IMG/VR virus record: IMGVR_UViG_3300015371_000003
Location: 52,230 to 116,229 of that record
Length of the DNA stretch: 64,000 nt
Strand: one strand, 5' to 3'
From: a virus
A program made the position numbers and the translations under genes. This document shows, in pieces, positions 1,631-34,364 of the stretch. The notes beneath the pieces are model-generated. The model ran no database searches, was not told the origin of the DNA, and saw only the letters and a list, made by a program, of their open reading frames with translations. Each line of letters opens with the position of its first letter. Within the stretch, counting starts at the first letter, position 1.

Positions 1631-3625
1631 ATGCTCAAGTTGACGGACGGCACGCCCCCCAAAGACACTCCTGAATCCAAGATTACCTTCATCCAGAAGG
1701 TGATCAAGGGTGAAACGTGGATGGTGATGGCGCACTCCGCCGTCGAATTAGAGGATGAGTTTTCCAGCCTCTATTACACGGCAGGGCAGCAGAACAACCT
1801 GTTCCTGATGCCCCCGTTCGAACCCAACGTCCTCCTGAACCTCGTCCAGACCAACAACATCCTCAACCAGTGCATCGAAGCGATGGAAGTGAACATCGAT
1901 GGCACCGGGCATGAGTTTATTCCGGCGAAGGATAAAGCCTCCGACAAGTCCGCAGGAAAGCCGGGAGCCGAGGACAACGCTCCGGCACAGTCAGGCATTC
2001 CTCCGCCGACATCTTTTGGCAGCATCCGCAAACAGGATGCGACGGCGGATGACATCGATGAGGAGGAGAAGAAAGTAGCGGAGGGATTCTTCAAAGAACC
2101 CTATCCGAACACCTCGTTTGTGTCGATACGCCGGAGAATGCGGCGGCAGATGGAATCGGTGGGCTATGCGTTCCTCGAAGTACTCCGCAATGTGGCCGGG
2201 GACGTAGTAGCTATCCGGAACATTGAAACGCAGCATGTTCGCATGGTGAAGCTGGATGCCCCCATTCAGGTGAAGAAGAAGATTGAGCGGGACGGGAAAG
2301 TCGTGGAACTGGTGCTCTGGGAGCGGGAGCGACGATTTGCACAGACGGTGGCCCTGAAGCAGCAGGTGTACTACCGGGAGTATGGGTCCACCCGTGAAAT
2401 CAACCGGGAAACGGGGGATTGGGAGACGGACACCGAGAAGGTACCGCCGGAGAAGCGGGGATCAGAACTGCTGATGTTTGGGATCAATCCGGACGTGACC
2501 ACCCCGTACTTCCTCCCCCGGTGGATCAACGAGTTACCCTCCGTCATCGGTTCCCGAGCGGCGGAGGAACAGAACCTGCAATTTCTGGATGCGGGTGGTC
2601 TGCCTCCGGCCATCGTATTTATCCAAGGCGGCACACTCATCAAGGACACCTCCGACCAACTCCGCATGTATTTGTCTGGCCTGAACAAGAACAAGAACCG
2701 GGCGGTGGTCGTGGAGGTGCAATCCTCCAGTGGATCACTGGATGCGGCGGGCAAGGTGGATGTGAAAGTCGAGCGATTCGGTTCTGCCCAATCCCAAGAC
2801 GCGATGTTCACCAACTACGATGAATCCACCGAGGAGCACGTGCGGATCGGCTTCCGGTTGCCCAAGATTTTTCTGGGGCGGGAGGAATCCTACAACTTTG
2901 CGACGGCACAAGTGGCCTACATGATTGCGGAGGCCCAAGTCTTTGGTCCGGAGCGGGAGGAGTTTGACAAGATCATCAACAAGACGATCATCAAGGAACT
3001 GAAGCTCAAGACACTGGAATTCAAGTCCAAGCCCATTACCTTGAAGGATGTCACGTCGATTCTGACGGCTCTGGAATTGTCGGCACCGATGGCAACGCGG
3101 GAATCCTTCCTGAAGGAAGTGAATACGTCGGTGGGCACGTCGTTGGAACTGGCGGAAGTCCCGGCCCCGAATGTGGCCCCCGGTCAAACGCCGTTGCCGA
3201 ATACGCGGACCATCGATGAGATGCACCACGGTGAACTGCCCGCGTCTACCCAAACTCCGCAGATGACGGCTCCGCAACAGGAACCCAAGCCCGAGCCACC
3301 ACCGAAGGAGACACACGTCATCCTGAAACCGGGGGATGAGATGCACCCAGTGCCCGCCAAGGATGAGACGATTCGGGCTAAGCCGAAGGAGAAGAAGGCG
3401 GCGAGTGACATCCTGACGCTAGCGCAGGATTACGCCATCTATCAGGGGTTGATGCCCCAACTGGCGATCAAGCAGGAGTTGACCAAAGAGCGAGCGGATG
3501 CTATCAACGAGGAGCTAGACACGCTCCACCCGGATGATGTGCGTGTGTTCAACAGCCTGCTGGCGATGATGGTGTTTGGATCGGATGACGCGGATCTGTC
3601 CTCCGTGATTGCCGCCACCCGGTAA
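1631..3625 (+). CDS. Portal protein (PBSX/HK97-type)
   Basis: 664 residues. It should form the dodecameric ring at the capsid vertex through which DNA is packaged and ejected. The N-terminal part around residues 65-95 has the pattern of PBSX-family portals: PPF(D/E)P..LxxLxxxNxxLxQCIEAM followed by a Gly/His-containing strand. The middle is a long alpha/beta core. The C-terminal third is proline-rich (residues about 520-590) and then helical, longer than the compact 400-500-residue portals. It opens the structural operon and its stop lies one base before the next ATG. Identification rests on the N-terminal pattern and gene order. Confidence 0.85.
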   Translation: MLKLTDGTPPKDTPESKITFIQKVIKGETWMVMAHSAVELEDEFSSLYYTAGQQNNLFLMPPFEPNVLLNLVQTNNILNQCIEAMEVNIDGTGHEFIPAKDKASDKSAGKPGAEDNAPAQSGIPPPTSFGSIRKQDATADDIDEEEKKVAEGFFKEPYPNTSFVSIRRRMRRQMESVGYAFLEVLRNVAGDVVAIRNIETQHVRMVKLDAPIQVKKKIERDGKVVELVLWERERRFAQTVALKQQVYYREYGSTREINRETGDWETDTEKVPPEKRGSELLMFGINPDVTTPYFLPRWINELPSVIGSRAAEEQNLQFLDAGGLPPAIVFIQGGTLIKDTSDQLRMYLSGLNKNKNRAVVVEVQSSSGSLDAAGKVDVKVERFGSAQSQDAMFTNYDESTEEHVRIGFRLPKIFLGREESYNFATAQVAYMIAEAQVFGPEREEFDKIINKTIIKELKLKTLEFKSKPITLKDVTSILTALELSAPMATRESFLKEVNTSVGTSLELAEVPAPNVAPGQTPLPNTRTIDEMHHGELPASTQTPQMTAPQQEPKPEPPPKETHVILKPGDEMHPVPAKDETIRAKPKEKKAASDILTLAQDYAIYQGLMPQLAIKQELTKERADAINEELDTLHPDDVRVFNSLLAMMVFGSDDADLSSVIAATR

Positions 3626-3626
3626 G

Positions 3627-5144
3627 ATGCCGACGCTCGATCTGCGGACGTATGTGCTGTTGGAGCGGGCCTTTGTCCGGAGGCTCCAACGGTCATGGCG
3701 GCAGCAGTCGGCTCCGCTGTACGCGAAGATTGCCCAAGCCTGCAACGACCACAAATGGGATGAAGCCCGCCGTCTTGTCACCGATCTGGACATGACGGAG
3801 GTCGGCACCGAGAACCGCGAGTGGATCACGTACATGCTCCGGTCGTGTGCCGTCTTCGGAGCCGGTACCGTCTCCAAGAAGAAACCGAGTTTCGTGGGCG
3901 TGGGCAGCTTCGATACCTTCCTGAAGCAGACCACGAACAATTTCCTGCAATACCTCGAATTGACCGCCACCGCTCAGATCCAAGCGGAAGCGTTGCAATC
4001 AATTGCCGAAGATGAGGCTAAGACCAAAGCCGCGATGTTGAAGGCGGCATGGGATGAATCCCAACACCCCCGTGACAAGGAAGGACAGTTCACGGAGGCC
4101 GGGGCCGGAACGGAGGCCAAGTCGGGGGATCCCGAAGGCAGTGGCCCCGCCCGTGTGGAATGGAACAAGCGCAACAAGGCGGTGATGGAAGCGACTGATG
4201 TCTATATTGACACCAGAGAAGCCCATCGAGCTTTAGTGGAGCGATTGAACGCTGAATATCAGGCGGAAACCCCGATGGGGTATCCAGAGGCCGGGTATGC
4301 GGCGTACAAGAAATCCCAAGCCACATTGGAGCAGGCCAACCAAGCGTTGGCACAGGCCGAAACTGCGCTGAAGCAACAAGAACCGCTGATGCGGAAGGAA
4401 ATCGTCCAGAATCTGGCGACAGACGTAGCCAGTGATTTGGGCGTTGATCCACGTTTGATTGACGTGGTGGACGAAGCTCCGCATCCGTTTACGGTTGGAG
4501 ATAAGCAATTTACCGAGGCGGGGCACTACGATCCGACTACCAAACGCATTCAGTTGAATTCCAACAATATCTCGTATGCGAATGCCCCCGGAGTCAAGGG
4601 GGTGGTAGCCCATGAAATTTCTCATGCGATCTATCACCAGTTGAAGATTGCGGCGGAGGAGGAATTTCAACGGTATCTCGTCAAAGCTACGACCGAGGAT
4701 GCCTATACCCCGTGGTTTCATGAGCGGTTTACCACCGATCCCCATAAAATTGGCCGTCAGGTGAAGCCCGAGTACGCCAAGGAAATGGCCGAGGAATTTC
4801 CGGCGTCTACCGTGCTGGCCCGGTTGAGTGGGGGAGATATTTTCTCCGGTATCACTGATGAGATGATTGCTGAAAATGGGCATAGTCGGTATGCCAAATC
4901 GTACTGGGCCGCTGAAGCCGAGAAACGGATAGGGCTGCGGAATTACCGTAACGCCATCAATGAAACGATAGCCGAGATTACGCGGTGGTTGGCCTACCCC
5001 CGGTCATGGGAGGAGGAGAAGCCACCGGATCTGGATTCTCCGTGGGTCAAGTTGACAGAATCCATGTTGGGATGGCATCAACGACAGCAAGCTGAACAGG
5101 CGAGGCAGTTTGCCGCGTCTTTGGCGTCGGGGTTCCGAGCATGA
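3627..5144 (+). CDS. N-terminal half of minor head protein fused to tag and zincin metalloprotease
   Basis: 505 residues; the ATG at 3627 directly follows the portal stop. Residues 1-135 are helical (LLERAFVRRLQRSWRQQ...) and resemble the N-terminus of SPP1 gp7/Mu gpF-type minor head proteins, which normally follow the portal. Residues 142-153 carry the recurrent tag WDESQHPRDKEGQF. A coiled coil follows (about 225-265), then a metalloprotease-like domain with HEISH at 329-333, the HExxH zinc site of zincins. The C-terminal half of the minor head fold is missing here but appears in the gene at 10366. The protein is probably in the virion; whether the protease acts in assembly or in the host is unknown. 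Confidence 0.7.
   Translation: MPTLDLRTYVLLERAFVRRLQRSWRQQSAPLYAKIAQACNDHKWDEARRLVTDLDMTEVGTENREWITYMLRSCAVFGAGTVSKKKPSFVGVGSFDTFLKQTTNNFLQYLELTATAQIQAEALQSIAEDEAKTKAAMLKAAWDESQHPRDKEGQFTEAGAGTEAKSGDPEGSGPARVEWNKRNKAVMEATDVYIDTREAHRALVERLNAEYQAETPMGYPEAGYAAYKKSQATLEQANQALAQAETALKQQEPLMRKEIVQNLATDVASDLGVDPRLIDVVDEAPHPFTVGDKQFTEAGHYDPTTKRIQLNSNNISYANAPGVKGVVAHEISHAIYHQLKIAAEEEFQRYLVKATTEDAYTPWFHERFTTDPHKIGRQVKPEYAKEMAEEFPASTVLARLSGGDIFSGITDEMIAENGHSRYAKSYWAAEAEKRIGLRNYRNAINETIAEITRWLAYPRSWEEEKPPDLDSPWVKLTESMLGWHQRQQAEQARQFAASLASGFRA
3994..4007. repeat. 14-bp palindrome copy 2
   Basis: TGCAATCAATTGCC inside the 3627 gene; codons read L-Q-S-I-A. Confidence 0.7.
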
Positions 5145-23400: not shown

Positions 23401-23891
23401 GTAAGTTGAACGAAGTCTTGGATGAAGCCAAGCAGCGGTTGCTGCAATTGAATGCACCACCCGTGACCCTCACCGGCAAGGTGGTCGTGGCCTACGATGA
23501 GAACGATTTGCTGGATGTGCTGAAGGGCGTCCGGTCGTTTCCTGCGGTGGGTATCGTCTACGAAGGCATGCGCTCCATGTCGGAGGAGCCGAATCCTACG
23601 GCGAAGGTTGGGCTGTCGTGTGAAATCGTGTTGGGCTTTGTGCTGGTGGAACGGGGTGATGAAATTCACGCCACCGACCAGAAGAAAACCCGAGCGATTG
23701 ATTACTTGGATGCGATGCGCCTGCAATTCATCGGGCAGCGCAGTACTGTCTCGAAACACTATTGGCACTTCATGGTAGAGGCTCCTGCCGCGCTTCGATC
23801 CGGAGCCGTCTGTTGGGTACAGCGATGGTCCTTGCCAGTGCAACTGCCTCACTTGCCCCCGAACGGCCAGCAACACCCGTTCTGCCCGTAG
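23397..23891 (+). CDS. Tail terminator-like protein
   Basis: 164 residues with a GTG start overlapping the preceding stop. Its place, between tail-completion protein and tail genes, and its size fit a tail terminator or gp37/DUF1834-like protein that caps the tube. The first 135 residues look alpha/beta. The last 35 (Trp/Pro-rich) overlap the next gene by 67 bases in another frame, so they may be an added tail created when the downstream island was inserted. Identification is mainly positional. Confidence 0.5.
   Translation: MSKLNEVLDEAKQRLLQLNAPPVTLTGKVVVAYDENDLLDVLKGVRSFPAVGIVYEGMRSMSEEPNPTAKVGLSCEIVLGFVLVERGDEIHATDQKKTRAIDYLDAMRLQFIGQRSTVSKHYWHFMVEAPAALRSGAVCWVQRWSLPVQLPHLPPNGQQHPFCP
23443..23456. 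repeat. 14-bp palindrome copy 9
   Basis: TGCAATTGAATGCA inside the tail terminator-like gene (L-Q-L-N-A). Confidence 0.65.
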
Positions 23892-24559
23892 TCTCGTGCA
23901 TTCTGCCGACGAAGGACCGAGCGGCGTACATCCCACACGCCATCCGTAGCTATCAGTCGCAAACCTACCCCGCCAAAGAACTGATCGTCGTGGATAATGG
24001 GACCGATGCGACGGAGGCGCTGATTCCGCCGGATCCATCGATTCGGTATACCAAGGTGACGGGCACGCTGTCCACCGGAGAAATGCGGAATCTCTGTGTG
24101 AAACAGGCGCAGGGAAAGTTTATCTGTCATTTTGATTCGGATGATTGGAGTGCGCCGGAACGGGTGGCCGATCAAATTACGCGCCTTGGAGTGTTTGGGG
24201 TCGTGACCGGGTACGACTCCATGTTATTTTATGATGAGCGGGATGGGCAGTGCTACCAGTGGTCGTATCCGGCCCCCATCCGTTTTGCCTTGGGTACGTC
24301 GTTGTGCTACCGGAAGGCATGGTGGGATCACCATCCGTTTCATGCGTTGCGGGTGGGGGAGGATGTGCGGTTTTTTATGCAGGCCATCCGCGAAGCCAAT
24401 CGACTGGTTCTGACGGCTCCCGCCAATCACCTGATGGTGGCGCGAGTCCACAATCAGCAGACGAGTCGCAAGACGTTGAATCGCACCAGTTACAAACCCG
24501 TCCCTCCGGTGCATCTCCCCCCGTTGTACCCATGCGATTTAACCTCATCTCCAATCTGA
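23825..24559 (+). CDS. Family 2-type glycosyltransferase
   Basis: 244 residues from ATG 23825. VSCILPTKDRAAYIPHAIRSYQSQ (about residues 22-45) is the GT-A N-terminal signature, followed by ELIVVDNG, MRNLCVKQAQGKFICHFDSDDW with the DxD metal motif near residue 113, and a GEDVRFFMQA acceptor-side motif. It would transfer a nucleotide-sugar-derived residue to phage DNA, virion protein or host glycan. It starts a five-gene modification island set between tail terminator and tail tube. Confidence 0.8.
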   Translation: MVLASATASLAPERPATPVLPVVSCILPTKDRAAYIPHAIRSYQSQTYPAKELIVVDNGTDATEALIPPDPSIRYTKVTGTLSTGEMRNLCVKQAQGKFICHFDSDDWSAPERVADQITRLGVFGVVTGYDSMLFYDERDGQCYQWSYPAPIRFALGTSLCYRKAWWDHHPFHALRVGEDVRFFMQAIREANRLVLTAPANHLMVARVHNQQTSRKTLNRTSYKPVPPVHLPPLYPCDLTSSPI

Positions 24560-25395
24560 CCAACGGGTGCGGGCTGCAACAGGATTACCTGTTGCTGAAG
24601 TCGGCCTTGGAAGCCCGTGGGCATTCGGCGTATGGCATTCAGTTCAATCACAAGCCCTTGCTGGTGAAGCCTGCGGATGTCAATATTTTCTTGGAAGTGG
24701 TGGTGCCTCAGGTGTTTACGGCGGCTCCGAAACAATGGGCCATTCCCAATCCCGAATGGTGGTTTGCCGGGTGGGATGCGAGTCCGTGGGATCGGGTGTT
24801 CGCCAAGACGCACGATTGCGAACGGATTTTTCGGGAGAAGGTTGGGAACCGGTGTGAATATCTGGGGTGGATGGCCCGTGACCTCTACCACGAGGGGATT
24901 CAGCGGGAACGGAAGTTTTTGCATGTGGCCGGGAAATCCCGGTTCAAGAATACTGCGGCAGTGGTGACAGGATGCCGCATGGCGGGTGTGCCGTTGACGG
25001 TCGTAAGTGCCTTTCCTCCCTACACCCGAGTCTCCGATTATACGCTTATCCAATTGATGAATTCTCATTTCTGCCACGTCATGCCTTCGGCCTACGAAGG
25101 GTATGGGCACGTGTTGCATGAGGCGTTGGGGACCGGTCAGATTGTCATTACGACCAATGCCCCACCGATGAATGAAATTACGCCCGCGATCTACGTGCCG
25201 AGTGTGGCGACGACGGCGCATCATTCCGGGTGGTTGCACCGGGTGGACGCTCAAGCTGTCGCCAAGGCGGTGCAGGAAGTTTCGGCGTACTCCGATGACG
25301 AGGTGAAGCAGCAACAGCGTCAGGCCCGAGCGTCGTTTCAGCAGAGTCAACAGGCGTTTGAATACGCCTTGGATCACGTGGTGGGACACGCATGA
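24532..25395 (+). CDS. GT-B glycosyltransferase
   Basis: 287 residues from ATG 24532, overlapping the previous gene by 28 bases. The C-terminal half carries the GT4-type signature PSAYEGYGHVLHEALGTGQIVITTNAPPMNEI around residues 184-215, with the E residues that contact nucleotide sugar. An N-terminal Rossmann-like start (MRFNLISNLTNGCGLQQDY) is visible. The acceptor is unknown. The last 30 residues are Gln-rich and helical. Confidence 0.75.
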   Translation: MRFNLISNLTNGCGLQQDYLLLKSALEARGHSAYGIQFNHKPLLVKPADVNIFLEVVVPQVFTAAPKQWAIPNPEWWFAGWDASPWDRVFAKTHDCERIFREKVGNRCEYLGWMARDLYHEGIQRERKFLHVAGKSRFKNTAAVVTGCRMAGVPLTVVSAFPPYTRVSDYTLIQLMNSHFCHVMPSAYEGYGHVLHEALGTGQIVITTNAPPMNEITPAIYVPSVATTAHHSGWLHRVDAQAVAKAVQEVSAYSDDEVKQQQRQARASFQQSQQAFEYALDHVVGHA

Positions 25396-25943
25396 AGTGG
25401 CAGTGGTCTGGTACGGCTGGACTGGATTTACATGAGGCGTTGCGGGCCGCATGTGCGTTCATCAAACCCGTGAACAGTTATCTGGAAATTGGGGTGGATG
25501 GCGGCGGATCCCTGAACACGGTGCTCTGTGAAGGTCGCCCCGAGCGGATTGTGCTGTGTGATATCTGGGATCCCACTTACTGCGAGCACGGAGACGCCAA
25601 GCCCCGTGTGCTGGAAATCCTTGACTTCTTCGAAGCCACGGCCCGATTTTTGGATGGGGATTCGAAACGGCTCATTCCCACGTTGAAGGAGTCCTTCGAT
25701 CTGGTGACTGTGGATGGGGACCACAGTCCAGAGGGAGCCTATATCGATCTGTGTAACGCATGGCCCCTCGTGAAAGTCGGTGGCATTTTGGTAATGGATG
25801 ACATTCACCATCCGAATTACCCGTGGCTCAAGCAAGTCTGGGAAGGCTGTCTGCAACAGTGGCATCTCCAACAGTGGCGGTTGGAACGCATCATCGAACA
25901 ACACGGGGGCTGTAACGCCGACATGGTGAAGAAGATCGCATGA
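25392..25943 (+). CDS. Class I SAM-dependent methyltransferase
   Basis: 183 residues. SAM motif I is SYLEIGVDGGGSLNTVL (about residues 29-45); VDGDHSPEGAYIDLCNAWPLVKVGGILVMDDI (about 110-140) is typical of the Methyltransf_24 group that often methylates sugars or small molecules in glycan gene clusters. Placed between two glycosyltransferases, it may modify the transferred sugar. It overlaps both neighbours. Confidence 0.75.
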   Translation: MKWQWSGTAGLDLHEALRAACAFIKPVNSYLEIGVDGGGSLNTVLCEGRPERIVLCDIWDPTYCEHGDAKPRVLEILDFFEATARFLDGDSKRLIPTLKESFDLVTVDGDHSPEGAYIDLCNAWPLVKVGGILVMDDIHHPNYPWLKQVWEGCLQQWHLQQWRLERIIEQHGGCNADMVKKIA

Positions 25944-25957
25944 AACTGGAATTGGGG
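25940..25957 (+). pseudogene. 5' fragment of an interrupted methyltransferase gene
   Basis: ATG 25940 overlaps the preceding stop and encodes M-K-L-E-L-G, the expected start of SAM motif I. The frame then runs into foreign sequence and stops after 11 codons. The rest of motif I (CGNHPTPGY) resumes at 26540, past the HNH gene. Confidence 0.65.
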
Positions 25958-25961
25958 CCAA

Positions 25962-26531
25962 ATGGTAGCATTTGAGAATTTAACAGGGCACCGATTTGGC
26001 CGTCTTGTGGTGTTGGGGCGTGCTGGTACTGATAAGAACGCTTTTGTTCTTTGGAAATGCCGGTGCGATTGCGGGAAGGTGGTGGATCGTGTTAGGACTC
26101 CCGGCTTAAAGAAGGGCAAAGCTAAAAGTTGTGGGTGCCTGAATAGGGAGAGAGTGCGAGCATTACACGCAAAGAACGCCAACGAAATGTCAGCTTTGCG
26201 TAGGTTGTATTACGAGACGGGAGCCTCCGCACGCCAGAGGGAGCTTAGTTTTACACTAACCCTTGAAGTTTTTATTGAGTTGGTAAAGTCTGATTGTGTT
26301 TATTGTGGAGCACCACCATCGAGAGTATTCAGACGAACGAATAAGGGTGGAATGAAGGCCCATTCGTTATGTGTGGTGAACGGGATCGATAGACGAGACA
26401 ATCAGTATGGATATGAAACGCTCAATTGCGTGACTGCCTGCGAGCTTTGCAATCGAGCCAAGTCTGCGATGGGGGAAGTTGAATTCGTGGCTTGGATTGA
26501 TAGATTGGCGAGGCACCGAAAATTCGATTAG
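25962..26531 (+). CDS. HNH homing endonuclease inserted in a methyltransferase gene
   Basis: 189 residues. The N-terminus (NLTGHRFGRLVVL...WKCRCDCGK...KSCGCLN) is a Cys-rich DNA-binding module seen in phage homing nucleases. The HNH nuclease follows: CVYCGAPPS near 110-118, NGIDRRDNQYGYETLNC near 142-158 and CELCNRAKS. It is more AT-rich and uses different codons from its neighbours, which points to recent transfer. It fills almost all of the gap between two parts of a methyltransferase frame, leaving no room for a self-splicing intron. It probably cleaves the intact allele in competing phages. Confidence 0.85.
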   Translation: MVAFENLTGHRFGRLVVLGRAGTDKNAFVLWKCRCDCGKVVDRVRTPGLKKGKAKSCGCLNRERVRALHAKNANEMSALRRLYYETGASARQRELSFTLTLEVFIELVKSDCVYCGAPPSRVFRRTNKGGMKAHSLCVVNGIDRRDNQYGYETLNCVTACELCNRAKSAMGEVEFVAWIDRLARHRKFD

Positions 26532-26983
26532 AACTTGGTTGCGGAAACCACCCGACACCGGGCTACCTGCATCATGATCGGTGGGTGCATTCACCGCACA
26601 TCGATATTGCCTTTGATCTAGATACGTTTCCGTGGCCCGTCGAGGACGGGTCCGTCGAAATGCTCCTTGCCACAGACGTGTTCGAACATCTCAAGTGCGA
26701 CGTGCAGACATGGTTGGATGAGTGCTGGCGAATTCTCAGACGACAAGGCGTGCTGAGCATGCGCCTCCCTGCGTATGACAACCCGTATAGCTGGCGGGAT
26801 CCCACGCACCAACGGGTGTTTCATCAGGAATCGTTTCTTTACTGGTGCCCCCAAGCGGAGGGCACAGTATGGAAGGATTTTGGGCGCTACTACTTCGGTC
26901 CTGCGTATCAGAAGTGGTGGCGGCAGCAGTCCGTGATTCGTGAAGTCAAAGACTGGCGTTTTACGCTATGCAAGATGTCGTAA
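26522..26983 (+). pseudogene. 3' part of the interrupted methyltransferase
   Basis: From 26525 the frame reads R-L-E-L-G-C-G-N-H-P-T-P-G-Y, a full SAM motif I, followed by IDIAFDLDTFPW, DVFEHL and a C-terminal methyltransferase region. No normal start precedes motif I in frame: a TAG lies at 26501. The first good start is GTG 26585, which would give 132 residues lacking motif I. Either the gene is dead, it starts at an ATT such as 26504 or 26522, or an unusual mechanism joins it to the 5' fragment. The 3' end overlaps the next glycosyltransferase. Confidence 0.6.
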
Positions 26984-27729
26984 TCATCCCTACGTATGAC
27001 CGGCCTGAACTGTTGTGGCTTTGTCTGGATTACCTGTCTAAGTGTCCTGATAGCGTGCATGTGCCGATTCGGATTTACGTGGATGCTCATATCGGACAGC
27101 CGCCCCCGCCACGAGAGGATATTACGGCGGTGGTTGAGAAGTTTCCCACGCTCTCCATCCAAGTGGCCTATCGCGCCTCCCATCCCTACCCCGGCAACAG
27201 TCATAACGTCCTGATGGCCTACAAGGATGCCTACGAATCGGAAGCGTCCTACGTCTTTCTCGTGGAAGACGATGTGCTAATTCATCCGCAGTTTTTTACG
27301 TGGCACCGGTATGTGCAGAACGGGAGTAAAGCCATCGGGTGCAGTATTGCGGTGACGAATCCGGGGCATGGCGCGTATGCGTCGTTGGGCGTGTGTTTCA
27401 AGCGGGAGCGGCTTCAACTGGTGATGCCCCACTGCAAAGCCGCCTATTTTCAGGATATGCGGGGGTATTGTCGTGCCCATTTCCCACCCTCACGGTTTGA
27501 CTGTGAACAGGATGGGTTATTCGCACGAGTGCTGGCAGGCCATCCGGTCGTGTGGGCAGGCACCCCCTACGCACAGCATGTGGGATGGTACGGGTATCAC
27601 CGTCCGAGAAGTGTCCGACCACAGGGCACCTTAGAAGATCGCTATTTTCAAGTGAAGCAGGCGTTGCGAACCACGCAATCCATCCGGAAAGTCTCGCGTG
27701 ATTTCAGGGATATCCAACCGTTGACGTAA
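26968..27729 (+). CDS. Glycosyltransferase-like protein (GT-A)
   Basis: 253 residues. VVIIPTYDRPELLWLCLDYL (residues 4-23) is the GT-A entry signature, and FLVEDDVLIHPQFF near residues 92-105 provides an EDD metal-binding motif. The rest, including CEQDGLFARVL, resembles GT2-like proteins in phage and bacterial glycan loci. Last gene of the modification island; a new promoter follows. Confidence 0.75.
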   Translation: MQDVVIIPTYDRPELLWLCLDYLSKCPDSVHVPIRIYVDAHIGQPPPPREDITAVVEKFPTLSIQVAYRASHPYPGNSHNVLMAYKDAYESEASYVFLVEDDVLIHPQFFTWHRYVQNGSKAIGCSIAVTNPGHGAYASLGVCFKRERLQLVMPHCKAAYFQDMRGYCRAHFPPSRFDCEQDGLFARVLAGHPVVWAGTPYAQHVGWYGYHRPRSVRPQGTLEDRYFQVKQALRTTQSIRKVSRDFRDIQPLT

Positions 27730-28692: not shown

Positions 28693-29526
28693 ATGAGCAC
28701 TTTTGATGCGGCCAACTGGTACTTCAGCGGCCAAGGGGTGATCATGATCGGGCGTCGTGACCCGATCACGGGCAACCCGATTGGGCTGAGGCCAGTGGGC
28801 AACTGCCCGGAGATGCGCTTGACGGTCGCTACCACCGTCGTCAACCACAAAGGTTCGCAGGATGGACAGCGGGCCACCGATGCTCGACTGCAAACCGAAG
28901 TCAACGTGACGGCCTCGTTCACGTGCGAGAACTGGAATGCCCGGAACCTTGCGGAAGCCACTCGTGGGTCCGATACGCTGATCCCGGCAGGGTCCGTGGT
29001 CAACGAAGCGGCCAAGGCGTTCCCCGGACTGGTGACGGCCCTCCGGTACATCAAGGTCAACGGTGTCGTGGTCAAGAAGGGCGCGACCACCCTGACCAAG
29101 TACACCGATGGCACCGTGCCGTGGGATTACAAGCTGAATCCCGAGGCCGGTTCCATCATGTTCAACGACGGGGATCTGATGGACTTCGCGGGGTTCGTGC
29201 CCTCGTCGCCGCCGGATCCTGATGGGGATGATCTGACGGTGAGCTATTCGTACGAGGAACAGTACCTCGTCTCGTCTCTCACCCGTCCGATCACCGACAA
29301 CTGGCTCCGCTTCGAGGGTCTGAACACCATCGAGGAGAACAGCCCGGTCATCGTGGACGTGTTCCGCTTCTCCAACGATCCGCTCAAGGAACTGGCGCTC
29401 CTGTCCGATACCTTCGGGCAGTTTGTCATCGAGGGATCGGTGCTGAAGGACGACACGCGGCTGAGCGGCAGCAACTATTTCAGCATCAAGAAGCTGAAGG
29501 CACAGCCTGACAATCTCGTCAACTAA
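28693..29526 (+). CDS. Major tail tube protein
   Basis: 277 residues after AAGGAG. Beta-rich throughout, with the pattern of siphovirus tube proteins: an early strand pair, TASFTCENWNARNLAEAT, and a C-terminal VIVDVFRFSNDPLKELALL...FVIEGSVLKD segment. It directly precedes the overlapping chaperone pair and tape measure, the invariant order for tail genes. Stop is followed by a strong hairpin that may adjust expression of downstream genes. No sheath gene accompanies it. Confidence 0.8.
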   Translation: MSTFDAANWYFSGQGVIMIGRRDPITGNPIGLRPVGNCPEMRLTVATTVVNHKGSQDGQRATDARLQTEVNVTASFTCENWNARNLAEATRGSDTLIPAGSVVNEAAKAFPGLVTALRYIKVNGVVVKKGATTLTKYTDGTVPWDYKLNPEAGSIMFNDGDLMDFAGFVPSSPPDPDGDDLTVSYSYEEQYLVSSLTRPITDNWLRFEGLNTIEENSPVIVDVFRFSNDPLKELALLSDTFGQFVIEGSVLKDDTRLSGSNYFSIKKLKAQPDNLVN

Positions 29527-30070: not shown

Positions 30071-30267
30071 AGGTGTTGGTCGCCAATGGGCATCGTCCTG
30101 CGGAAGTCTGGGGTTATAGTTTGCGGGTCATTGATGCCTATATCGAATTGATTGCTCAACGTCTTCAGCACGAGTTGCATGATCTGACCGTGGCAGTTCG
30201 ACACTCTCAAGGAACGGACGCAAAGGTGTTTCGTCAATTTTTAGAGAGTTTGCAGGGAGACGAGTAA
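29962..30267 (+). CDS. -1 frame extension of the tail chaperone (gpT-like)
   Basis: The -1 frame from the slippery site is open for 101 codons and ends at TAA 30265-30267, overlapping the tape measure start. After a basic linker (RKRRKL) it reads PEDAFSHGLAASVEVL and VWGYSLRVIDAYIEL, a helical domain like the T part of GT proteins. It lacks a convincing independent start, so it should be made as a fusion of about 220 residues. The recurrence of G/GT frameshifting in siphoviruses is established; the exact site is read from this sequence. Confidence 0.75.
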   Translation, partial: SEATVIRGDGASAKAIRKRRKLTPEDAFSHGLAASVEVLVANGHRPAEVWGYSLRVIDAYIELIAQRLQHELHDLTVAVRHSQGTDAKVFRQFLESLQGDE

Positions 30268-33200
30268 TGCCCCCGACCTCCGCCGCGATGGAACTGAAAG
30301 TCCTGATCAGCGTGCTTCAGAGCGGCAATGCGCTGAAGACGCTACTCGGGCAGGTCAATCAGCTATCGTCGGCGCTGACCACTCTCCAATCGAAAAGTAA
30401 TGGGGCACAGCCTCCCGGTATTCCTCCGACACTCAAGCCCCGTGCTGATGAAGCTACCAAGTCCCTGCTGAATATTGAAGGCGCGGCGAATAAGGTTACG
30501 AATGCTCTCAAGTTTATGGTCGGGGGGTTTCTGGCCCTTGAGAGCGTACGGTTCGTGAAAGATTTGGCGGATGCGGCGGCGAGAGCGGAGGTGTTGCAAA
30601 CTGTTCTGCATGTGGTGGGGAACAACGCCGGGTACATGCGAACGGAATTGGATGCTGCTGACAAAGCGGTCCAGAAGCTCGGAATCACGGCGTCGGCATC
30701 TCGTCAGGCGTTGACCCAAGCGATTCAAGCCGGGATCCCCCTTGCCGATGTGACCAAGTTGGCGCGGGCGGCTCAGGATACGGCGGTCATTCTCGGGACG
30801 AATTCATCAGAAGCCTTCCAGCGGCTTGTGACAGCGGTGCAGACCAGTAACACCCTGATGCTTCGGCATATGGGGATTACGGTGCAAGCGCAAGCTGCGT
30901 ACGACCGGTTTGCCTTATCGATTGGAAAGACCGCGAGTCAGTTGACCGCTCACGAGCGAGTGCTGGCGTTTTCGAACGCCACATTGCGGGAGGCCGCGAA
31001 ACTCCAAGGCACGTACGAAGCCGCAATGGGGAATGTCGGTAAGCAACTGACTTCTCTGGATCGGTTGCAAGAAAACCTCAAGGTATCGTTGGGCGCGGGA
31101 CTGTTGCCTGCGTATTCAGCGTTAGTCGAGGAACTATCGGAATTTCTGAAGTATCTGGGCCTGACCACTGACGAAATGGGTGGGCAGACCAAAGCCGCAC
31201 GGGATCTTGGAGCGACCATCAAAGATTTGGCCCATAGTTTTTTTGAAATTGGGAAATTTTTGATTGAGCACAAGGGTGTGGTGTTGGGGGTGATCGAAGC
31301 CTACTTCGTCTTCACTCGTGTGCTTCCGTGGATACGAAGTTTGGTTGCTGCGCTGCCCGCGTTAGAAGCCGCTATAGCCGGAGTAGCGGGCGGCGGAGCC
31401 GGTCTGGTCGCGGCCTTAGGCGGATGGCCCGTCATTATTGCCGGAGTGATTGCCATTCTTGTTGCACTGGCGGCTCAATTCCCCACAGTCCGGGCGGGAT
31501 TGCTCAGCGTGTGGTATGCCTTCTTGACGGTGCTGACCGTCATTGGGGCTGTGGCGAAAGCCATCTTCGGGCTGATTCCCCTGTTGAATACGCTGAATGA
31601 TGTGTTGATCCATCCGTGGAGAGCCGCTGATTTGGCAGCGGCATGGAAACAATGGGAGGACACCGCGAAGCAGTCGATGGACGAGGTGGTGGCTTATGCC
31701 AAAAAAACACAGGAGCAAGTTGGTAAAGCCTTAACTCCTGAAACACCAGAACAGGCGGCAGCACGAGAAAAACAGGCCAGAGAAGACGACATTGCCAAGG
31801 GCCGCGTCGAAATTGCCAAACTCATGGCGCAGGAGGCGGATGCGAAAGAGCGATTGGAGAAGGCCCAAACGCTTGGGGGAGGAAGTAAAGTCACGGATCT
31901 TGAGGAGGCGCTGAAACGAGTCCGAGAGGAACTAGGCAAAGCGCAAGCGGCCCAAGACAAACTGTATGGGGCGGGCGGGTATTCCCCCGAAAGTATCGAG
32001 CGGGAAAAGAAGATGGTGGCGGTGCTGGCTGAAGAACAGAAAGCCCGCTATGACATGGAAGGGATTGAGGAAGCCAGATCCAAGAGTCGATTTACCTACG
32101 GGGCGGAAGGGGAGTTGAGTCGAAGTTTTGGCTTACAGATCGGGCAATATAGCGAATTGCTGAATGGGTACGTCAATAAAACGAAAGATGCCAATGTTAC
32201 GACCGCTGAACTGACTACCAATCTCGAAGAAGCTGGTAAAGCGGCCCAAACTGCGGGCGATTTGAAGCTGCTGACAGCGGCGGTGAATGACCTTCTGAAA
32301 AGTAACAAAGAACTGTCCGCCGAAGAACGTTCGCGTGTCCGGTCAGCCCTGACAACAGGGCGTTTGCAAGTGGAGCAGGCAACGCTGGCCCGAACAAATG
32401 AAATTTTCCAACGTCAACAAGCCTTGCGGAATGAAGCCAACAAGCAGACTGATCAGCAGCTACAGCTTGAGTTGACGCAGTTACAGACTCATAACGCTCA
32501 GACACAGGCTCTCGAAGATCAGGCGTACGCCCGTGGAGCCATTTCCCTCCAAGATTATTACGATCATCGTGCGGCCATCATTGAGGCGGAATACCAGAAA
32601 CAAAAACAAGTTGCAGAGACAGACTTACAGCAAGCGATTACGAGGCCCGTGCGAAACGTGCAGGAGGAAGCTGCTCGGGCTACAGAGGTTCAAGCGGCCC
32701 GGAATCGTTTGGCAAAATTGGAAGACGATACCGAGGGGAAGCGGCAAGAGAACCGGATCAAACGGGATCAGGAACGTACGTCGATTAACAACGAGATTCT
32801 GGATATTCAGCGGGAAATTGCGGAATACGAGGGAGACGAAGCGACCGTTCTTGAAGTCCTGAATGCGAAGTATCAGGACCGATTAAATAGGCTCAAGGAT
32901 TCAAAACCGGAAGCTCGGGAATTGCTACGGATTCAACAGACCATCGAAGAATTTGATATTGCCCGAGAGAATCGTGAAAAAAGGGCACAACCCATCTTTG
33001 ATGAGTTGGCGGCTCGGAAACAGACGCTGGATCTGGAGCAGAAGCAAGCCGATCTTGAGAAAATTCGTGTGGATGCGCTGGAGAAGTCTGGGAATCTGAC
33101 GGCGACTCAAGCCGCCCGTGCTCGCAATCAATTGCTGCAACAACAGGAACAGCGGGTCTACCAGCAGGGGTTGAACGAAGCCAATAAACTCCGGCAGACG

Positions 33201-34364
33201 AGTATTCGGTTAGCTGAGGAGGAGGCGGCCAAACGGAAGGAGTTGGAGAGTATTGGTGTTAAAGATTCTGGACAGATGGAATTGCTGCTGTCTCAGGACA
33301 AAGCGATTATCAAACTGCGTGAGGATTTCCGCCAAGGGAAGATTGCCGTTCAAGATTTCGAAAATCAGATGGCGGCTCTCGCTACGCAAATCGAGCGGTC
33401 TGGGGATCAAATTCGAAAAGCTTTCCAAGATGGGTTGGGGAAGGCCATCAACGATTCAATTTACGGGATCAAGAAACTCGGAGAGACGTGGGGCACGTTC
33501 CTTGTAGATTTCAGCAAGAGCGTGACTGGAATGATCACGGGGGATATCGCGGCCCGCATTACGAATGCGATCAATCGGATTGGGGCGAAGACCGATAAAG
33601 GAAATGTGGTTCCGGGGACAGGGTTGTTTGAACGGTTTCTGCCCCCGTGGTTGCGAACAGCCCCCAAGCGGGATGGTAGTTCGCCCGGAATGTCGCTGTA
33701 TGTGGATTTTGCGAATCCGGAAAAGCTGTTCAATTATCTCAAGCCCACGGCGATTGGAGAACAACCACAACTCAATTTCTCACCCAAAACGAATCAGCAG
33801 TTCAATTTCTTGATGGCGGGGGTGAGTAGTGCGTCCACGTCGTTCAGTCAGTTTGCACCTCTTGCCAATTTGGGAGCTAATTTAGCACCCCACCTTCTAC
33901 GGATGTTTAGCACGAGAGCACCGGTTTTTGAAGGGGGATCGACGCTTGCCGCCAATCTCGGCGGAGCCGGAGCACTAACAGGGTTTGAAGAAGGTGGCCC
34001 GGTCCAAGGGCCGGGAACCGGCACCAGTGATTCCATCTTGGCCCGAGTCTCAGCGGGTGAGCACATCATGCCAGCGGCCAAAGCCGCACGATGGATGCCC
34101 CTGCTAGAGAGCATTCGGCTTGGGACACTGGCTCCGGCGTTTGCCTTGGGTGGGGTGGTCGCGTTGCAATCAATTGCCATGTCTCCGGTGATCCCCCGTC
34201 GCTATGCCTCCGGTGGGGTGGTGGTGACGGATGGCGGAGCCTCAGCGGTAGAAACCGGAGGCGGAGCCGGGAATATGGTGGTGTCTCTCCATCCCGATGC
34301 CTTGAATCTGACCATGCGAGAGTGGTTGGAGCATGAAGTGGTGCGTCAGCAGGGGAGACGGTAG
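30267..34364 (+). CDS. Tape measure protein
   Basis: 1365 residues. The N-terminal 300 residues are helical. A cluster of hydrophobic segments at about residues 330-450 would form membrane-inserting helices during DNA ejection. A long charged coiled-coil region runs from about 490 to 1090. The C-terminus has FEEGGPVQGPGTGTSDSI then ARVSAGEHIM near residues 1235-1270, a motif common at tape measure C-termini. Using the usual figure of about 0.15 nm per residue, the tail would be roughly 200 nm long. It follows the chaperones directly. Confidence 0.9.
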   Translation: MPPTSAAMELKVLISVLQSGNALKTLLGQVNQLSSALTTLQSKSNGAQPPGIPPTLKPRADEATKSLLNIEGAANKVTNALKFMVGGFLALESVRFVKDLADAAARAEVLQTVLHVVGNNAGYMRTELDAADKAVQKLGITASASRQALTQAIQAGIPLADVTKLARAAQDTAVILGTNSSEAFQRLVTAVQTSNTLMLRHMGITVQAQAAYDRFALSIGKTASQLTAHERVLAFSNATLREAAKLQGTYEAAMGNVGKQLTSLDRLQENLKVSLGAGLLPAYSALVEELSEFLKYLGLTTDEMGGQTKAARDLGATIKDLAHSFFEIGKFLIEHKGVVLGVIEAYFVFTRVLPWIRSLVAALPALEAAIAGVAGGGAGLVAALGGWPVIIAGVIAILVALAAQFPTVRAGLLSVWYAFLTVLTVIGAVAKAIFGLIPLLNTLNDVLIHPWRAADLAAAWKQWEDTAKQSMDEVVAYAKKTQEQVGKALTPETPEQAAAREKQAREDDIAKGRVEIAKLMAQEADAKERLEKAQTLGGGSKVTDLEEALKRVREELGKAQAAQDKLYGAGGYSPESIEREKKMVAVLAEEQKARYDMEGIEEARSKSRFTYGAEGELSRSFGLQIGQYSELLNGYVNKTKDANVTTAELTTNLEEAGKAAQTAGDLKLLTAAVNDLLKSNKELSAEERSRVRSALTTGRLQVEQATLARTNEIFQRQQALRNEANKQTDQQLQLELTQLQTHNAQTQALEDQAYARGAISLQDYYDHRAAIIEAEYQKQKQVAETDLQQAITRPVRNVQEEAARATEVQAARNRLAKLEDDTEGKRQENRIKRDQERTSINNEILDIQREIAEYEGDEATVLEVLNAKYQDRLNRLKDSKPEARELLRIQQTIEEFDIARENREKRAQPIFDELAARKQTLDLEQKQADLEKIRVDALEKSGNLTATQAARARNQLLQQQEQRVYQQGLNEANKLRQTSIRLAEEEAAKRKELESIGVKDSGQMELLLSQDKAIIKLREDFRQGKIAVQDFENQMAALATQIERSGDQIRKAFQDGLGKAINDSIYGIKKLGETWGTFLVDFSKSVTGMITGDIAARITNAINRIGAKTDKGNVVPGTGLFERFLPPWLRTAPKRDGSSPGMSLYVDFANPEKLFNYLKPTAIGEQPQLNFSPKTNQQFNFLMAGVSSASTSFSQFAPLANLGANLAPHLLRMFSTRAPVFEGGSTLAANLGGAGALTGFEEGGPVQGPGTGTSDSILARVSAGEHIMPAAKAARWMPLLESIRLGTLAPAFALGGVVALQSIAMSPVIPRRYASGGVVVTDGGASAVETGGGAGNMVVSLHPDALNLTMREWLEHEVVRQQGRR
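33123..33136. repeat. 14-bp palindrome copy 12, weak
   Basis: CGCAATCAATTGCT in the tape measure gene; the only coding copy in a different reading phase (R-N-Q-L-L). Confidence 0.4.
34165..34178. repeat. 14-bp palindrome copy 13
   Basis: TGCAATCAATTGCC near the 3' end of the tape measure gene (L-Q-S-I-A). Confidence 0.7.

Follow-up and report, generated by a model that had tools for sequence, protein, structure and literature searches.

A virus of bacteria carries a PacI-like HNH endonuclease gene inserted in the start of a methyltransferase gene, at the S-adenosylmethionine (SAM)-binding motif I. The methyltransferase is not simply broken by this, since its full start, in a different spelling, occurs again 3' of the HNH gene. 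The DNA analysed is a stretch of 64,000 nucleotides (the window), which is part of a 116,229-base IMG/VR virus record. Taken as a whole, the best explanation, to which we give a probability of about 65%, is that the nuclease gene invaded the methyltransferase start at LELG|CG and carried with it a diverged replacement for the start that it displaced.

An interrupted gene start with a second copy

At ten loci (L039-L048) the same methyltransferase is encoded and no HNH gene lies at the place of insertion. A start codon lies at most 8 codons before the (x)LELG motif in all ten; seven of the relatives begin with MTRLELGAG, MIRLELGCG, MNLELGCG, MTRLELGCG, MKLELGCG (two) and MRLELGCG, and three of the ten start with GTG or TTG. 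Three of the closest relatives (L039, L040 and L042) share with the window an ATG that overlaps the stop codon of this same upstream gene; in the window, the TGA of the Methyltransf_24 gene overlaps the ATG at 25940. Because the ten relatives are uninterrupted and start just before the motif, the arrangement in the window is an insertion, and the ancestral gene did not start at GTG 26585, a position occupied by K or L in the aligned relatives. An earlier note on this DNA had proposed an HNH insertion at motif I, had suggested a search for an uninterrupted allele in relatives, and had said that relatives always starting at GTG 26585 would speak against the proposal; the ten loci provide that allele, their starts precede the motif, and the insertion is thereby borne out. 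A near-identical uninvaded allele of the window phage was not found in public phages, which gave no DNA match and only 7 distant protein matches, or in bacterial and archaeal genomes, which gave no close allele.

The 5' stub (Table 1) reads ATG AAA CTG GAA TTG GGG, only 4 bases separate its LELG from the HNH start codon, and the short ORF that it forms is a possible leader for coupled translation. The methyltransferase frame, which is not that of the HNH gene, is open from ATT 26522 (IRLELGCGNHPTPGYLHHDRW...) to a stop at 26981-26983, and it opens with ATT CGA TTA GAA CTT GGT TGC GGA AAC CAC CCG (IRLELGCGNHP). The first 10 bases of this 3' copy double as the C-terminus and stop of the HNH gene. 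The frame aligns with 14 relatives, and against L039 the body has 54 synonymous versus 28 nonsynonymous codon changes, which is purifying selection. In a predicted structure started at ATT, residues 2-5 (RLEL) form the first beta strand (beta-1), so a start at GTG 26585 would remove both this strand and the SAM loop. If translation does start at ATT 26522, the protein has motif I on beta-1 and a Rossmann-like fold, as expected of a class I SAM methyltransferase.

Two sequence observations of the earlier note stand: 5 of the 12 LELG bases differ between the two sides, with every difference synonymous (CTG GAA TTG GGG in the 5' copy versus TTA GAA CTT GGT in the 3' copy), and the downstream part has no standard start before motif I, with no in-frame ATG, GTG or TTG between the preceding in-frame stop and the motif (L038). 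What its wording implies, a methyltransferase left as a headless fragment, does not, given that the frame is complete and includes motif I; ATT in the start-codon position, GAGG 5' of it and the overlap with the HNH stop also speak against that reading. When scored blind as a flank duplication, the LELG/LELG match reaches 33, below the null 99th percentile (43 to 46), and is not significant alone. Since the gene start is placed there by ten relatives, chance is not an explanation.

Table 1 Features of the invaded locus and its surroundings (window coordinates)
Feature	Position	Strand	Remarks
Upstream methyltransferase gene (Methyltransf_24)	25392..25943	+	Pfam PF13578 E 2e-15; relatives 71-74% identical
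5' stub, displaced start of Methyltransf_11 gene	25940..25957	+	ATGAAACTGGAATTGGGG (MKLELG); gene-start position in relatives
Short ORF formed by the stub (MKLELGPNGSI, then stop)	25940..25975	+	Overlaps HNH start; stops at TGA 25973-25975
HNH endonuclease gene, PacI-like	25962..26531	+	189 aa; phrog_374 E 1.5e-19, phrog_1035 E 3e-17
GAGG, Shine-Dalgarno-like	26510..26513	+	8 nt before ATT 26522
3' copy of gene start (I/M R L E L G)	26522..26539	+	ATT CGA TTA GAA CTT GGT
HNH stop TAG	26529..26531	+	Inside methyltransferase start codons
Complete Methyltransf_11 reading frame	26522..26983	+	153 codons plus stop if initiated at ATT; PF08241 E 9e-6
Glycosyltransferase gene	26968..27729	+	PF13641 E 6e-7; overlaps methyltransferase 3' end
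Major tail protein gene	28693-29526		Downstream of cluster 23762-27729
Tape measure gene	30267-34364		Downstream of cluster 23762-27729

The genes belong to a glycosyltransferase and methyltransferase cluster (23762-27729) that precedes the tail genes, an unusual position for sugar-modifying genes. A second contig (IMGVR 3300015374_000793, 9,053 bp) is 100% identical to the window over the 7,549 bases compared, and the HNH join is therefore not an obvious error of a single assembly, with the proviso that the two contigs may share one sample.

A free-standing PacI-like nuclease

The HNH protein combines an N-terminal four-Cys domain, present in many phage HNH proteins, with a C-terminal nuclease motif CxxC-(G)IDR-GY-N-CxxCN. 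Its C-terminal domain resembles the restriction enzyme PacI both in sequence (phmmer E 1e-4) and in predicted structure (model pLDDT 92; Foldseek top match 3ldy, E 3e-4). The motif residues are invariant or nearly so in 34 sequences, so the enzyme looks intact; by motif and modelled fold it is a PacI-like HNH (beta-beta-alpha-metal) nuclease with predicted cleavage activity. Its relatives end a few residues past the last helix; the corresponding residues of the window protein, and its stop codon, are encoded by gene-start DNA. Relatives of the locus have an uninvaded allele at the site and the HNH gene is not inside a self-splicing intron or intein, which marks it as a probable free-standing homing endonuclease gene, with putative cutting of the uninvaded allele and putative spread in crosses.

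Phage HNH genes are often intron-borne, but it is extremely improbable that this one resides in an intron of group I or II or in an intein. Rfam gave no match in 25300-27300 at E up to 5 and no intron core RNA, the 5' side offers four non-ORF bases, the stub frame ends at TGA 25973-25975, and splicing does not need a duplication of LELG. The earlier note had likewise seen no space for an intron core.

No second HNH gene of the same kind was found in this virus, the other phrog_374 match being only in a DNA polymerase intein region. There, before the window in the same record (G000:C1 48916-49272; L062:1220-2030), a DNA polymerase A gene contains an intein (Intein_splicing E 1e-10), and an HNH/AP2-like ORF (L062:1447-1950; phrog_374 E 2e-41) overlaps the middle of the intein in another frame. 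Both frames are open for about 500 bases, as with the out-of-frame HNH of ShiLan (see Discussion) but within an intein.

Duplicated gene ends at other HNH loci

HNH loci were gathered with alignments of the window nuclease, giving 130 distinct loci, mostly PacI-like, and their translated upstream and downstream flanks were compared by local alignment, which replaced exact 5-residue matches (too noisy), with mismatched flank pairs as the null. Ten of the 130 have a diverged gene-end duplicate on both sides of the HNH gene that scores above the 99.9th percentile of mismatched pairs and looks real on inspection. Two high null scores (94 and 101) are probably locus pairs that share the same methyltransferase end. 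Two loci were left out of the count: L304, with a null-level score in low-complexity sequence, and L264, in which the repeat is a tandem pair of HNH genes (1959-3897, both PacI-like, near tandem and each opening with KRI(I/V)LCG(F/L)GENLGKFID).

In six of the ten the duplicate is at SAM motif I of a DNA methyltransferase. Duplicated 3' ends of DNA methyltransferases are found at L110, L069 (phage phi93), L236, L237, L238 and L240; the remaining duplicates belong to an ISGTKIR protein, probably a nucleotidyltransferase (L089), to what is probably a nuclease (L126), and to the start of a MAHP-type protein (L145/L147 and L207), which we take to be DUF6915-like. In the 3'-end cases the upstream gene holds one copy, and the other forms an orphan ORF (37-58 codons) immediately 3' of the HNH gene. 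The phi93 orphan, which is the displaced native end, begins within the GSG|TT codons of motif I, and those of L110, L236, L237, L238 and L240 begin near this point; in function, GSG|TT in phi93 corresponds to LELG|CG in the window. Four of the six invaded DNA methyltransferases (L069, L236, L237 and L238) have a replacement end that reads GSF for GSG in motif I, L240 has GSM and L110 keeps GSG; GSF is perhaps a cut-resistant spelling.

Lactococcus phages have the same architecture together with an uninvaded allele and alleles without the HNH gene. The methyltransferase of PhiL.18 is uninvaded, and PhiL.18 1-816 aligns to phi93 11-826 and PhiL.18 780-1528 to phi93 1553-2301. Compared with PhiL.18, the gene body in phi93 and PhiM1127 is 97% identical, its last part is foreign and is followed by the HNH gene, and the native end is displaced behind the HNH gene at 99.9% identity. 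A native end has been displaced here and a foreign one supplied. Phi40 (L151) and phi145 (L152) keep the foreign methyltransferase end and have no HNH gene, and they are probable scars of a lost homing gene. The phi93 and PhiM1127 nucleases belong to the same family as that of the window (34% identical) and represent the same type of insertion in a methyltransferase SAM motif, although they target an N6/N4 DNA methyltransferase in which motif I is 3'-located. A study of Skunavirus HNH enzymes classed that of phi93 as PacI-like, at one location (PMC12724721); its text has no match to methylase, methyltransferase or MTase, so gene-end replacement appears not to be described there.

The 5' geometry of the window recurs, by sequence comparison, at the MAHP-type gene. 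At L147 a gene-start stub of 22 codons is followed by an HNH gene that overlaps the restored gene start by about 29 nt, as in the window. The flanks are 88-95% identical to those of the uninvaded L225 and the gene only 81%, so the HNH gene and the gene copy probably came as a foreign tract. L195 and L207 have an HNH gene directly before the same MAHP-type gene, L207 with its own short stub. At L118 (2450-3200) a PacI-like HNH gene stops just short of the ATG that opens an unrelated methyltransferase gene (MEQIKLNLGSGS; motif LNLGSG), which is possibly a donor-like arrangement. L047 (3084-5696) has the order glycosyltransferase, Methyltransf_11, PacI-like HNH and Methyltransf_24, with an HNH ORF that touches both neighbours and is 36% identical to the window HNH; here a nuclease gene has inserted independently into this set of genes.

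Which copy is foreign, and whether the gene is read

The earlier note held that the 3' copy probably came in with the insert by homing recombination, and this is favoured but not proven. The 5' copy uses codons that are common in the phage (CTG 35%, TTG 27%, GGG 37%) and the 3' copy rarer ones (TTA 6%, CTT 11%, GGT 14%), which from codon counts gives about 40:1 over LELG for the 3' copy being foreign. On the other hand, L039, the closest relative of the methyltransferase, matches the 3' copy in 12 of 15 bases and the 5' copy in 8 of 15, which would make the 3' copy native; the nucleotide similarity of the other relatives to the two copies is mixed. An import in the reverse direction, with a native 3' copy and an HNH gene that brought the 5' MKLELG in front of it, would also fit the agreement of I-R-L-E-L-G with MIRLELG of L040 and the TTA codon common to L039 and the 3' copy. 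We nevertheless consider it unlikely, given the codon usage and the direct evidence from phi93 and L147, in both of which it is the foreign copy that continues into the gene body.

ATT 26522 is at the position of the ATG in L041, L044, L045 and L046, GAGG is 8 nt 5' of it, and the HNH stop begins 4 bases after it. Termination followed by reinitiation commonly couples the translation of overlapping genes, and a Shine-Dalgarno sequence enhances it (PMC6728339, PMC2268962). The position of the ATT, the GAGG and the overlap with the HNH stop together make coupled AUU initiation at 26522 likely. AUU is able to start translation, as in infC, but it is a weak start codon, which counts against the best explanation, as does the size of the duplicated piece in the window, six codons. 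The main rival to AUU initiation is loss of methyltransferase expression: the HNH insertion would have cut the gene from its ATG and left it silent, or made as a fragment from GTG 26585 without motif I, with a frame that is intact only because the insertion is recent. The lack of an ATG, GTG or TTG before motif I and the rarity of AUU initiation fit this possibility, and purifying selection measured against distant relatives cannot show use after the insertion. We regard it as possible but doubtful, since the frame takes in beta-1 and motif I and has no gap as far back as the position of the start codon, the GAGG and the overlapping HNH stop are in place, and the genes joined to a replacement end in phi93, L147 and L110 are intact with an ordinary start. 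An HNH-methyltransferase fusion (...RHRK-IRLELGCG) could instead be made by -1 ribosomal frameshifting at A-AAA (HNH codons CGA AAA TTC GAT TAG), where a tRNA can slip back by one base and still pair with AAA, and the -1 frame runs exactly into ATT CGA TTA, with GAGG upstream. This is very unlikely, as the site is not a classical heptamer, the RNA structure at the junction is not unusually stable (z -0.14) and it is a single example.

Discussion

Under replacement of the gene start, a free-standing PacI-like HNH gene would invade the methyltransferase start at the SAM-binding glycine loop (LELG|CG), and the incoming DNA would bring, fused to the HNH gene at its 3' end, the opening codons of the target in diverged form. 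The HNH enzyme would cut at the conserved motif in alleles that lack the insert, and an invaded allele, serving as repair template, would then pass on the HNH gene together with the replacement end. The native start MKLELG would be left as a stub, and the gene body would continue from a full start in another spelling. The result would be guarded from re-cutting by the split site and possibly also by the changed spelling, and the methyltransferase would be made from AUU 26522, aided by GAGG and by ribosomes that end at the overlapping HNH stop.

The closest parallel, by analogy, is the mORF elements of fungal mitochondria (Allomyces atp6; Glomus atp6, atp9, cox2 and nad3). In the part of that literature used here, an endonuclease ORF inserts with a foreign, diverged carboxy-terminal gene end that displaces the native end, and the gene continues with the foreign end (PMC3630166). 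The same part describes mitochondrial cases at the 3' end of genes, with LAGLIDADG or GIY-YIG endonucleases in Glomus, whereas the window has a phage, a PacI-like HNH and a 5' end. The window shares with mORFs a diverged gene-end copy on both sides of the nuclease gene and a gene that is continuous with one of them, but it lacks homology to LAGLIDADG or GIY-YIG endonucleases; its HNH is PacI-like, so the element would work like a mORF and is not one by descent. T4-type free-standing mob/seg endonuclease genes, such as mobE in Aeh1 nrdA and mobA in T4 gene 60, are likewise intronless HNH insertions in functionally critical parts of genes, with ORFs that overlap their neighbours and are likely translationally coupled; there, however, the two gene pieces must reassemble, and the sections of the source drawn on describe no replacement end (PMC2988022). 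The ShiLan domain, a hidden out-of-frame HNH in a mycobacteriophage methylase (PMC11855218), is also an HNH insertion in a phage methylase without an intron or intein, but there the methylase frame reads through the insert, whereas in the window it stops and restarts.

Among the open-licence papers searched, none was found to report that phage HNH genes replace gene ends. The strategy is known in fungal mitochondria and, as far as our searches show, is apparently undescribed for phages. Whether widespread phage PacI-like HNH elements carry re-spelled target ends, mainly at SAM motif I of methyltransferases, keep the invaded gene whole and leave a foreign-end scar when the HNH gene is lost, with the window gene started at AUU and coupled to the HNH stop, is in our judgement evenly balanced. 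The phage pair phi93 and PhiL.18 makes the replacement-end model testable now.

A free-standing homing gene has to insert between genes or bear the cost of disrupting one, and a replacement end is a third way, resembling in nature the recoded rescue of gene drives. If true, this would explain mosaic ends of phage methyltransferases that have no nuclease gene, as in Phi40 and phi145, and through the AUU join in the window a nuclease gene would supply the ribosome site for the gene that it has invaded, which is rare in nature.
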